This document shows positions 60,471-64,000 of a DNA stretch of 64,000 nucleotides, piece by piece. The stretch covers positions 4,650,001 to 4,714,000 of the forward strand of contig NZ_JARUBH010000009.1 of assembly GCF_029626105.1 (NCBI RefSeq), given 5' to 3'. How positions within the stretch are numbered: the first letter of the stretch is position 1; each line of letters starts with the position of its first letter. The stretch is from Solwaraspora sp. WMMD792 (GTDB lineage: Bacteria > Actinomycetota > Actinomycetes > Mycobacteriales > Micromonosporaceae). The notes under the pieces are model-generated. The model was not told the origin of the DNA. It saw nothing but the letters and a program-made list of their open reading frames with translations, and did no database searches. The position numbers were made by a program, and so were the translations under genes.

Positions 60471-61691
60471 ATGCAGAACCATCCGCTCACCGCAGCACGC
60501 GAACGCCTGGGCCTGACCCGCCGGCAACTCGCCGACGCCGTCAACAAGATCCTCTACCCCGACCCCGGACAAGCCGCCCACAGCGCCTTCACCGCCAACT
60601 ACCTCGGCAAACTCGAAAACGGCAAGATCCGCTACCCCGCCGAGGACTACCGCACCGCCCTGCGCATCGCCCTCAACGCCGACACCGACGACGAACTCGG
60701 ATTCCGGCGGCGGGATATCAGCATGCGAACGAAAGGCATGCTCGCCGTTCGATCCAATCGATACGAGTCCCCGACAACAGGGCTCAGTCCCGCCGCCGCC
60801 TCGTTGACATCCGACGCCATCCCGTTGATGTCGTTGCTCGGCCCGCCGGTCGTTGACGAGTTGCCGCGTCAGGTCAGCCAGGAACACATCGCCCAGGTTC
60901 TTGAGGCGGCGGAGATCTTCGAACAGTGGGACAACGCGCACGGTGGCGCGCTGGTCCGGGAGATCGCCGACGACAAGCTGCACCGCATGTCCCGGCTACT
61001 GGAGGTGAGCTGCCCGGCGCACCTACGCCCCGCGCTACACAGGGCGCTGGCCCAGTTGGCGGGGGTCGTGGCGTTCATGCTCTTCGACGCCTACCACCAC
61101 GAGGCGGCCCGGCAACGCTTCACGTTCGCCCTGCGCTGCGCCAGCATCGGCGGCGACTGGCACCAGCGCGCGATGCTGCTGTCCAGCCTGGCCCGGCAGG
61201 CGGTGTGGTGCGGTCAGCCTGACGACGGGCTCACCCACATCGAAATGGCCCTGGTCCGCGCCGACTGGCTCACCGCATCCGAGCGCGCCATGCTACACAC
61301 CGTACGGGCACGGGCACTCGCCAAGCTCGGACCGGGCAGAGCACAAGAGGCGCTGGCCGCTGTCGGGGCCGCCGACGAAGCCTTCGCGCACGCCGCGCCG
61401 GCGGAGGACCCGCCGTGGATGTGCTTCTACGACGACGCGCAGCACCACGGAGACACCGCCCACGCACTGTTCGACGTGGCCCTGCACACCAGACTCGTTA
61501 CGGAGTCGGCCGACCGGTTCGCCTACTCAGTGGAGCACCATCTTCCGGCGTACCTGCGGTCCAGGGCTATCTCCCGGATCAAGCTCGCGTCCCTCACGAT
61601 GGTGCAAGGTGACCCGCTCGAGGCCGTGACGATCGGCAACCTGGCCCTCGACGACGCCGGGCCGGTCCGGTCCCGAGTCTTATCAAATTAG
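60471..61691 (+). CDS. XRE-family regulator, 3' end displaced by IS insertion
   Basis: Now 406 residues. The N-terminal HTH is AARERLGLTRRQLADAVNKI...AFTANYLGKLENGKIRYP. The rest is a helical, TPR-like sensor region (HIAQVLEAAEIFEQWDNAHG, CPAHLRPALHRALAQLAGVV, ASIGGDWHQRAMLLSSLARQ, QGDPLEAVTIGNLALDDAGP). After GPVRS the frame enters the IS at 61673 and ends five residues later. Joining 60471-61672 to 63566-63683 restores a 439-codon frame, so the insertion removed only ~38 native residues. The original stop overlaps the phosphotransferase start. GGGGG 4 nt before the ATG is its only ribosome site. Confidence 0.88.
   Translation: MQNHPLTAARERLGLTRRQLADAVNKILYPDPGQAAHSAFTANYLGKLENGKIRYPAEDYRTALRIALNADTDDELGFRRRDISMRTKGMLAVRSNRYESPTTGLSPAAASLTSDAIPLMSLLGPPVVDELPRQVSQEHIAQVLEAAEIFEQWDNAHGGALVREIADDKLHRMSRLLEVSCPAHLRPALHRALAQLAGVVAFMLFDAYHHEAARQRFTFALRCASIGGDWHQRAMLLSSLARQAVWCGQPDDGLTHIEMALVRADWLTASERAMLHTVRARALAKLGPGRAQEALAAVGAADEAFAHAAPAEDPPWMCFYDDAQHHGDTAHALFDVALHTRLVTESADRFAYSVEHHLPAYLRSRAISRIKLASLTMVQGDPLEAVTIGNLALDDAGPVRSRVLSN
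61428..61672 (+). repeat. Left copy of exact 245-bp direct repeat (target duplication)
   Basis: Identical base for base to 63321-63565. Both copies encode the same XRE-gene segment (YDDAQHHGDTAHALFDVALH to DDAGPVRS). Confidence 0.97.
61673..61685 (+). repeat. Left terminal inverted repeat
   Basis: CCGAGTCTTATCA; matches the right end with one substitution and one missing base. Confidence 0.75.
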
Positions 61692-63237
61692 TGCGCACCT
61701 GGGTGGGCGTGGATGGTCTTGAGGGCGTGGCGGAGGTCGTCGGGTAGGGGGTCGGCTGCGGTGAGGGTGTGGTCGCCGGCCTGGATGCGGATGGTGCGGT
61801 AGCGGCGGGCGGTCCGGACGAACTTCCTGATCGACCAGCCGGTGCGGTCCTCGATCCATCTGGCGACGGCCAGGGCGGCGAACACGATCGTCAGGTGCGC
61901 CTCGATGGACTCGCGTTTGTGGTGGTAGATCGGCCGGGCAGCGAGGTCGTGCTTGGACATCCGGAACGACTTCTCGATCTGGAACAGCCGGTGGTAGGCG
62001 TCGATCACGAACCCAGCGGTGACCGGTGCCCCGTCAGGGCTGGTCGTGAGGTTGGTGGCATAGCCTTTCAGCCCGGCCAGGGCGCGGGCCTTCGCCTCCA
62101 GGGTCCGGTTGACGGTCCTGGTCTCCCCGGCCAGGTGGATGAACCGGTTGCGTTTCACCGGGGCCTTGCCCGCCACCGCCTTGACGGCCTTCGCGACCTG
62201 CTCGTCGATGCCGCGCAGGGTGCGTCGGGCCCGGTCCGCCTTGTACTGGTAGTAGATGACCTGGTCGCGGCGTCGGTCGCCGGGGCCGGCGGGCCACGGC
62301 TGGCAGAACACGTGCCCGTCACCGATCTCCTGGCCGGGGTGCTCACGCCGCCACTCGGACACCACGTAGGGAACCTCGGCGATACGGGCGCCGAGGATGA
62401 ACGACAACCCGGCGTCCTCGATCGCGCGCTGGTTCGCCGCCGAGATCATCCCCGCGTCGGCCACGACCGTGACATCGGGCAGCCGGTGCGCGTCCATGAA
62501 CGACCGGATGGTCGGCACCATCGTCAACGTCTCGGCCTTGTTGCCCTCGAACGCCTCGACCATCAGCGGGAACCCGCCCGCGTCGGTCAGCAGCCCGATC
62601 GTGATCTGCGGTTCGAGGCGGCGTTCCTTGGAGAACCCGGACTCGCGGAACCCGTCACCGGTGTCGGTCTCGAAGTACAGGGTCGACACGTCGTACAGCA
62701 CCAACGACGCCGGTCCCAGCCGGGCGTGCGCCGCGCACGCCGCCGACAGGCGTTGACGCCAGCCGGCCTTGGCGTACTGCGGCAGGCGGCGGTTCACCGT
62801 CGGATACGACACCGCGTCGACGCCGACCTCGTCCAGGACCCGCAGGCTGTCCTGCTTACTGGTCGGCTCGATGATCCGGGCCAGGACCAGCTGCCGGAAC
62901 ACCTCGTCACCGCCGGTCGCCTCGGCGAACCCGAGCTGGTCGTAGCCGCGGCACAACGCGTCCCACAGGTGCCCATCCGCGAACTCGTGATCTCCAACGG
63001 ACCGCCCGCGTCCGAACTGTCGTCCAGCCCCAGGTCGAGCTCGCCCTGACCCGCCGCCAACCGCTGCCGCGCGACCGACTTCAACACCGCGAGCTGCGTC
63101 TCGTCGTGCGCCGACCCGATGTGCTCGATATCGCGTGACCCCCGCCGCGAGGAGTGCACGATCTGCACGGCCCTCGCACCCGAAGCCGTCTTCACAGTCC
63201 GGACGTACGGCGACACACCCGACAGCCTAGACGCCAC
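61688..63237 (-). pseudogene. IS1634-family transposase, frameshifted
   Basis: The N-terminal frame (from GTG 63237: SPYVRTVKTASGARAVQIVH, GSAHDETQLAVLKSVARQRL, PLEITSSRMG) and the main frame (CRGYDQLGFAEATGGDEVFR to the end, 422 residues from its first start at 62956) belong to one protein of ~515 residues. One base appears to be missing at ~62971-62977, where GGGCACC would need one more base to continue MGHLWDALCRGYD. The DDE region shows YDVSTLYFETD, VTVVADAGMISAANQRA and FQIEKSFRMSKHDLAARPIY with the YREK-like motif. A sequencing error or recoding cannot be excluded. Confidence 0.85.
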
Positions 63238-63306
63238 GGTTTAGTGCACATCCACCACACCAAAACCCCAGGTCAGCGAACTACGGTCCGCCAAAACCCA
63301 GCCCCG

Positions 63307-63320
63307 TGATAAGAGTCAGG
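63307..63320 (-). repeat. Right terminal inverted repeat
   Basis: CCTGACTCTTATCA read on the minus strand; partner of 61673-61685. Confidence 0.75.
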
Positions 63321-63565
63321 TACGACGACGCGCAGCACCACGGAGACACCGCCCACGCACTGTTCGACGTGGCCCTGCACACCAGACTCGTTACGGAGTC
63401 GGCCGACCGGTTCGCCTACTCAGTGGAGCACCATCTTCCGGCGTACCTGCGGTCCAGGGCTATCTCCCGGATCAAGCTCGCGTCCCTCACGATGGTGCAA
63501 GGTGACCCGCTCGAGGCCGTGACGATCGGCAACCTGGCCCTCGACGACGCCGGGCCGGTCCGGTC
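63321..63565 (+). repeat. Right copy of exact 245-bp direct repeat (target duplication)
   Basis: Identical to 61428-61672; continues directly into the native 3' end of the XRE gene. Confidence 0.97.
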
Positions 63566-63679
63566 GCTGCGCGCCGCCGACGACCTGCGGGAGCTGCACC
63601 GGATGGCCGGACCGCACGGCAAGCTCACGGAAGTGCAGGAGCTGCGCGTCCGGATCCGGAAAACGGTCGGAGCCGTCGC

Positions 63680-64000
63680 ATGACGGATCCGCAGGAAGCG
63701 CTGCTGCTCGCCTGCGAGCAGGTCGGGGTCGACGCGGCCGGCGCTGAGCTGATCCGCTCTGCGGAGAACGTCATCTACCGCCTGCCCGGCGGCGTTGTCG
63801 CCCGCGTCAGCCGCGACGGGCAGCTCGCCACCGCCGGCAAGGAAGTCCGGGTGTCCCGCTGGCTCAACGAATCCGGGATACCGGCTGTCCGCGCGATCGA
63901 GGAGCTGCCCCAACCAGTCGCGGTCGACGGGCGAGCGGTCACCTTCTGGCACGAGCTGCCACCGCACCGGGAAGGCAGCATCGGCCAGCTGGCCCAGGTG
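63680..64000 (+). CDS. Phosphotransferase family protein (3' end outside window)
   Basis: 107 codons are visible: EALLLACEQVGVDAAGAELI, then ENVIYRLPGGVVARVSRDGQ (the N-lobe with its Lys/Arg-type ATP-binding strand), KEVRVSRWLNESGIPAVRAI and VTFWHELPPHREGSIGQLAQ. This is the N-terminal lobe of aminoglycoside phosphotransferase/choline-kinase-like enzymes. The catalytic HGD and DFD motifs lie beyond the window, so activity and substrate cannot be judged. The ATG overlaps the stop of the XRE gene, so the two were an operon before the IS arrived. Confidence 0.82.
   Translation, partial: MTDPQEALLLACEQVGVDAAGAELIRSAENVIYRLPGGVVARVSRDGQLATAGKEVRVSRWLNESGIPAVRAIEELPQPVAVDGRAVTFWHELPPHREGSIGQLAQV

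Follow-up and report, generated by a model that had tools for sequence, protein, structure and literature searches.

An insertion sequence (IS) of the IS1634 family in Solwaraspora sp. WMMD792 is flanked by a perfect 244-bp duplication of its target, and long duplications are common among its surveyed relatives (50 of 89 copies). Most transposable elements attach both of their ends together. At the boundaries of the long repeats we found a short core sequence with a 5-bp spacing. Judged from these bases, it is fairly probable that the DDE transposase of such elements joins the two ends singly, at separate sites of the 5-bp type, and that host synthesis copies the DNA between them.

The element and its target site

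The window, i.e. the whole stretch of DNA analysed here (64,000 nucleotides of contig NZ_JARUBH010000009.1), holds the element near the 3' end of a regulator gene (Table 1). The preliminary description had placed here a 1648-bp element with inverted terminal repeats between exact 245-bp repeats. The inverted ends CCCGAGTCTTATCA and CCTGACTCTTATCA match at 12 of 14 positions, and the flanks are indeed identical over 245 bp (61428-61672 and 63321-63565), but the agreement of base 63565 with the first IS base is accidental. Since all five genomic copies start one C earlier, the element measures 1649 bp and the true duplication 244 bp.

Table 1. Features of the IS insertion and its surroundings (window coordinates)
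Feature	Position	Strand	Remarks
Target gene, 5' part, helix-turn-helix regulator	60471..61671	+	440 aa, uninterrupted in congener L251
244-bp target duplication, left copy	61428..61671	.	= 63321-63564; one copy in congeners
IS1634-family insertion sequence, 1649 bp	61672..63320	-	ends common to five genomic copies
Terminal inverted repeat 3' of transposase gene, "IRR"	61672..61685	-	+ strand reading CCCGAGTCTTATCA
Window transposase gene	61688..63237	-	one-base frameshift near residue 87
Terminal inverted repeat 5' of transposase gene, "IRL"	63307..63320	-	- strand reading CCTGACTCTTATCA
244-bp target duplication, right copy	63321..63564	.	one copy in congeners
Target gene, 3' end, beyond right duplication copy	63565..63683	+	
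Overlapping downstream gene, start, phosphotransferase enzyme family	63680..64000	+	intact in L251, 291 aa
202-bp duplication of second IS copy, window part	63864..64000	.	whole = 63864-64065, window numbering

The regulator scores 23.6 bits against HTH_31 here and 23.7 bits in L251, both below the Pfam cut-off of 27. The IS occurs a second time 745 bp downstream of the window copy, in opposite orientation, where it breaks the phosphotransferase-family gene just beyond the window. Both genes are uninterrupted in L251.

Empty sites were compared for the window copy and for its neighbour with the 202-bp repeat. In two congeners the site of the window copy is continuous and the duplicated segment has a single copy, with 244 bp at 95.9% identity in G003 (L251) and 242 of 244 bp at 94.2% in G001 (L252). 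This follows from the two query halves, the left one running to the repeat end and the right one starting at the repeat start, whose matches overlap by the repeat length. The same overlap of query halves is seen in the distant relatives G327 and G103 at 66-73% identity. The 202-bp repeat of the neighbouring copy is likewise single copy in the congeners. The comparison with an uninterrupted strain that the preliminary description had proposed thus yielded one copy of the segment at the empty site, and not the two copies that it had named as an argument against a target duplication. A recent insertion, which it had deduced from the identity of the repeats, also agrees with the data: the repeats are perfect, four genomic copies are identical in sequence and the site is empty in the congeners. 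The earlier observation was real and had been read correctly.

Five copies in the genome

The 7.4-Mb genome harbors five full copies of the IS, and all five are abutted by perfect direct repeats, of 1004, 116, 244, 202 and 221 bp. Five copies with five repeat lengths and perfect repeats abutting both ends exclude chance and support the reading as target duplications. None of the five has a 5-bp duplication. Hence the other copies do not carry short duplications only, which had been named as a second finding that would speak against the earlier reading. Four of the copies are identical in sequence (1649 bp) and share one frameshift in the transposase gene, while the fifth (G000:C9:827055; 1650 bp) encodes an intact transposase of 516 aa. 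Because four independently inserted copies carry the identical frameshift, they were probably mobilised in trans by the product of the intact copy. Recoding is a possible alternative.

Repeat lengths among relatives

Transposase matches were gathered from whole genomes, from the GTDB contig collection (best 80 of 95 matches, 79 distinct loci) and from plasmids (28 records matched, 12 taken into the survey). Because the large protein searches at family, order, class and phylum level were limited to three to six scored candidates per genome, the survey is a sample. The motif CCYGASTYNNNYCA served to locate the IS ends, after which the repeats were measured. The 249 loci contained 264 transposase match groups, many of which covered one and the same place, and these gave 87 distinct two-ended copies and, with two more, 89; copies with an unrecognised end, including L168 (G420) and L182 (G286), were left out. 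No relative was found in viral contigs, and the searches in the family of G964 and in the phylum added no new relative.

All 89 distinct copies are actinobacterial. The long repeats of the 50 copies range from 15 to 1004 bp with a median of 98 bp; 45 are exact and five contain 1-7 mismatches. In another 15 copies the duplication is exactly 5 bp, and the remaining 24 show no repeat or a chance repeat of 4 bp. Repeats of 6-14 bp do not occur among the 89 copies with recognised ends. One and the same element can use both modes: the element of G284 has repeats of 5, 15, 23, 459 and 615 bp and that of G700 repeats of 5, 64, 128 and 365 bp. The repeat lengths are without helical phasing (p 0.09-0.60), and the repeats do not differ in G+C content from their flanks.

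Six of the 24 copies without a repeat are accounted for. Two form a composite in Gordonia sp. ABSL11-1 with a 352-bp repeat at the outer flanks, and a plasmid of Corynebacterium faecale holds another two, as a composite whose outer repeat measures 513 bp. At L240 a 151-bp repeat is split by a 1346-bp insertion with an annotated IS3-family transposase gene, and a repeat of 67 bp belongs to the nested unit that includes L227. Three further copies (L045, L057, L113) touch a contig end or a run of N, and 15 others are left. When losses of target DNA were looked for at two repeat-less copies, L218 and L184, their flanks matched scattered places in relatives. Insertions of IS elements without duplications are treated in PMC11708052. 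The repeat-less copies of our survey could hide events in which target DNA was lost.

A core sequence at the junctions

The strand attacked by each IS end was read at the long repeats after removing the IS and one repeat copy in silico. The 50 insertions provided 99 usable junctions, of which 55 have T at position +1 (background 18%, p 2e-24) and 41 have A at position +5 (p 8e-9). Smaller deviations are seen at -2, where C is found at 52 of the 99 junctions (p 9e-5), and at -1, where T is found at only five (p 5e-4). Within 28 bases of the junctions, no further position survives correction. Both IS ends behave nearly equally, with T at +1 in 27/50 and 28/49 junctions and A at +5 in 21 and 20. 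When the junctions are divided by hand, based on the tree and the search lists, T at +1 occurs in both strata (35/57 in the clade of the window element, 20/42 in other clades), and so does A at +5 (26/57 and 15/42). Of the 99 junctions, 28 show the combination T-NNN-A, whereas 2000 null draws gave 2.7 on average and nine at most. The core is a preference and not a rule, as 31 of the 99 junctions have neither T at +1 nor A at +5. The window copy itself has the core at one boundary (TACGA) and ACCGG at the other.

Twelve short duplications are of the type YCNGR and share the same T/A frame. They have G at +4 in 10 of 12 sites, mostly from other clades; this base is not enriched at the long-repeat junctions (25/99). 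Repeats of 15 to 1004 bp thus carry a 5-bp spacing at each of their boundaries, as would be expected from two separate target captures. The occurrence of this core at both boundaries of a long duplication may be new, since it appears in none of the papers examined, in those parts of them that were accessible.

Distribution of duplication types on the transposase tree

The tree comprised 56 transposases, including one row (L094) in a wrong reading frame whose long branch is meaningless. The clade of the window element (28 rows, support 100/100) contains 19 copies with long repeats and nine without. Duplications of 5 bp are absent from it, both among these 28 rows and among the 42 rows listed for the clade, which were placed there manually and do not include L108, the second copy of the composite. 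Two other clades gave only 5-bp duplications among copies with recognised ends; the tree rows concerned are G420 together with L185 and L239, and G211/G286. The remaining branches are mixed. Shuffling of the labels showed clustering on the tree for 5 bp (0 of 500 shuffles as low) but not for long repeats (268 of 500).

For a count of duplications in the window clade, short or broken copies (L080, L116, L119, L132, L134, L140, L149) were left out, and with them L094 and L130 (unusable frames), L113 (N run) and L107 (composite). The 31 copies kept have a longest frame of about 500 aa or more and include frameshifted ones such as the four of the Solwaraspora genome. Repeats are present at 26 of these 31 copies (p 2e-4 against one half).

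The transposase

The IS1634-like identity proposed for the element is borne out by the intact transposase, which reaches 360.5 bits with the NCBIfam model NF033559 (transpos_IS1634; cut-off 100). The window's own frame matches Pfam DDE_Tnp_1. Residues D183, D261 and E422 are invariant across 18 transposase sequences and are the putative DDE catalytic triad. The length of the element lies within the range of 1500-2000 bp listed for the family (PMC2266710, Table 1). The same table gives the family ends as C-----YT; the ends here have C at position 1 and T at position 7, while position 8 is C at both ends and T in many relatives. The direct repeats of 5-6 bp listed there are clearly exceeded by the five genomic copies (116-1004 bp). 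This leaves the membership in the family intact because PMC2266710 itself, in the part available, lists IS1549 and IS1634 as exceptions with long repeats whose length varies between copies, and a variable length is exactly what the five copies display.

An AlphaFold2 model of the transposase (18 sequences, mean pLDDT 76) has as its best Foldseek structure match the Tn5 transposase 1muh (E 1.9e-8, 11% identity, TM-score 0.39-0.43). The predicted fold thus resembles Tn5 without being a close match, and with Tn5 as the best hit the enzyme looks like a DDE enzyme of the ordinary kind.

A stretch QxxL(D/E)L is found in most of the surveyed transposases. In P0001 it reads QGELDL and falls within a low-confidence linker of the model (residues 63-79, pLDDT <50). 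It resembles the clamp consensus QxxL(x)F quoted in PMC5371812, but ends in L. An IS1634 transposase of Acidiphilium is able to bind the beta sliding clamp; when its clamp motif was made stronger in a variant, transposition in E. coli increased (PMC4549789). The motif is placed at the C-terminus of the Acidiphilium protein, whereas the clamp-like motif here lies in an N-terminal linker. For the Acidiphilium element the accessible part of PMC4549789 lists 6-bp sequences at the insertion sites, which the legend calls inverted repeats and which we read as target repeats. If this reading holds, clamp binding alone is not the cause of long duplications. Tethering of the transposition complex to the replication clamp is therefore a possible lead with a weak link. 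Several transposases of the 5-bp type have F in place of L in the QxxL(D/E)L motif, but so do two long-repeat ones. The exchange is confounded by kinship and is kept only as a lead.

How the long duplications may arise

We infer a sequential single-end strand transfer followed by fill-in. Each IS end would attack its own site of the 5-bp type, recognised by T at +1 and A at +5 of the strand that it joins. For the second end this would be the opposite strand, some 15 to 1000 bp downstream, toward the free 3' end of the target, and host DNA synthesis would copy the stretch between the two joints into a long direct repeat. The ordinary 5-bp duplication of the family would result if the two ends acted at a single site. 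The coupling of the ends seems to be lost in the window clade. A more elaborate version is tentative and rather unlikely as a whole: with the ends uncoupled, the first would be joined, the host polymerase would copy the target downstream of it, perhaps with the transposase riding on the clamp via the conserved QxxLDL linker motif, and the second would be joined to the opposite strand at whichever T-NNN-A site is reached. The repeat length would then equal the run of synthesis, and the 5-bp and the 15-1004-bp modes would be separable by clade.

Other explanations have to be weighed against this. The two IS ends might each be joined to a different sister chromatid close to a replication fork, so that after resolution one chromatid gains a duplication and the other suffers a loss. 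Such joining would also leave a 5-bp core at each junction and freely variable lengths. However, unconstrained attack at two sites should make losses and duplications equally common, and at most five of the 31 window-clade copies kept for the count could be losses. The excess of duplications hence favours an event on one duplex that is filled by host synthesis, and we consider the sister-chromatid route unlikely. A 5-bp core at both repeat ends is equally predicted if two ordinary 5-bp insertions occur close together on sister chromosomes and recombine unequally inside the IS. This would need 5-bp precursors to be common, yet they are absent from the surveyed window-clade copies and from the five copies of the Solwaraspora genome, and the G at +4 that is frequent at 5-bp sites is not enriched at the long-repeat junctions; we regard this origin as very improbable.

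Another possibility is a single complex that makes one concerted cut of both strands with a long stagger, for instance in a replication or transcription bubble. Strictly, the sequences require no more than attack on opposite strands in the direction of duplication, and the first 42 repeat lengths are compatible both with an exponential distribution (KS p 0.55) and with a log-normal one (p 0.998). On the other hand, A at +5 mirrors T at +1 across 5 bp, as expected of duplex DNA in a two-fold symmetric complex and less so of single-stranded DNA, and we see only a small chance for the staggered cut. In principle, a single active complex might also recognise these bases if it stretched its target. 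That the segment was already doubled in the target and the IS inserted between the copies is exceedingly improbable. The single copy in two close congeners rules out a pre-existing tandem repeat at the window site, the two distant relatives have the same overlap of query halves, and the repeat length differs at every genomic copy.

The split between clades supplies natural pairs of transposases for swap experiments. The long repeats may also have consequences for the host and for annotation. They may leave the target gene whole on one side, may allow recombination to remove the IS cleanly, and may escape IS callers that expect short duplications.

Comparison with known systems

Long and variable duplications are already known for IS1549 of Mycobacterium smegmatis and IS1634 of Mycoplasma mycoides, which PMC2266710 places in one family with repeats of 8-514 bp. 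The likeness to IS1549 noted in the preliminary description therefore holds for the long variable repeats, but not for its view of the same mechanism in another family. According to the accessible part of PMC2266710, no mechanistic model for these duplications had been proposed as of 2008, and a literature search that had most subscription papers outside its scope found no later one. The junction core offers a concrete and testable answer to this open mechanism, namely two separate single-end joins.

IS1549 and IS1634 share with the window element the family and the long, variable direct repeats. Compared by description only, their repeats of 8-514 bp stand against up to 1004 bp here. Other members of the family differ in repeat length: ISGka5 has 6-bp repeats (PMC8024623), three 6-bp sequences, read by us as target repeats, are listed for the Acidiphilium IS1634-1 (PMC4549789), and the surveyed elements of G420, G211/G286 and G1009 have exactly 5 bp. 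The transposase of IS50/Tn5 has the closest solved fold to that predicted for the window element, but unlike the latter the IS50 subgroup makes duplications of 8-9 bp (PMC2266710, Table 1). Outside the bacterial elements, HERV-K (HML-2) also has occasional long repeats of 13-450 bp, and for some of them the pre-integration site has been confirmed (PMC5488345). This system is retroviral, its long repeats are the exception, and later rearrangement is also discussed as their cause in the same paper, as far as it was accessible.

Paired IS copies

The IS1634-type copy in the window has a close neighbour just beyond the window's right edge, a second copy of the same IS only 745 bp away. The two are inserted in two overlapping genes, one each (a helix-turn-helix regulator and a phosphotransferase-family gene), and each carries its own long duplication, that of the second copy reaching into the window at 63864-64000. 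Two tandem repeats were seen near IS copies of this genome. One, about 8.5 kb to the right of the window IS (L009), consists of two adjacent copies of 184 bp that are 100% identical. Close to the copy with the 116-bp repeat, a 138-bp unit is present in 8.7 tandem copies (93% matches), with a higher-order unit of 414 bp (96%), in what looks like a repeat-protein gene.

Paired copies and a tandem array
Feature	Location	Coordinates	Orientation
Second copy of window IS	G000:C9	4714066-4715714	opposite to window IS
Tandem array	G000, L008	7452-8716	
IS pair L107/L108	Gordonia sp. ABSL11-1 contig 15	7923-9540 and 28231-29848	
IS1634-type pair with cargo	Corynebacterium faecale plasmid pCFAEC45971a, L238	2206-7558	

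The Gordonia copies are identical to each other, lie 18.7 kb apart and share a 352-bp exact repeat at their outer flanks. Two readings fit this structure: a composite transposon that made a long duplication, or a single insertion into which a circle carried by the IS recombined. On the C. faecale plasmid, two identical copies, each 1674 bp long, flank a 2004-bp cargo region (two SMR transporters and a TetR regulator); the outer repeat measures 513 bp, and no separate repeats were found for the individual copies of this pair.

An element within IS1634-type transposase genes

In G582, a genome of the same order, IS1634-type transposase genes are themselves split, at about residues 201-204, by one 3232-bp element (loci L226, L227, L228 and L229). 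It is identical over its full length in the first three loci and in shorter stretches in L229, occurs in both orientations and ends in perfect terminal inverted repeats of 103 bp. Since its frames, as we read them, look like three putative tyrosine recombinases, this suggests what we take to be a RIT-like element with a preferred site.
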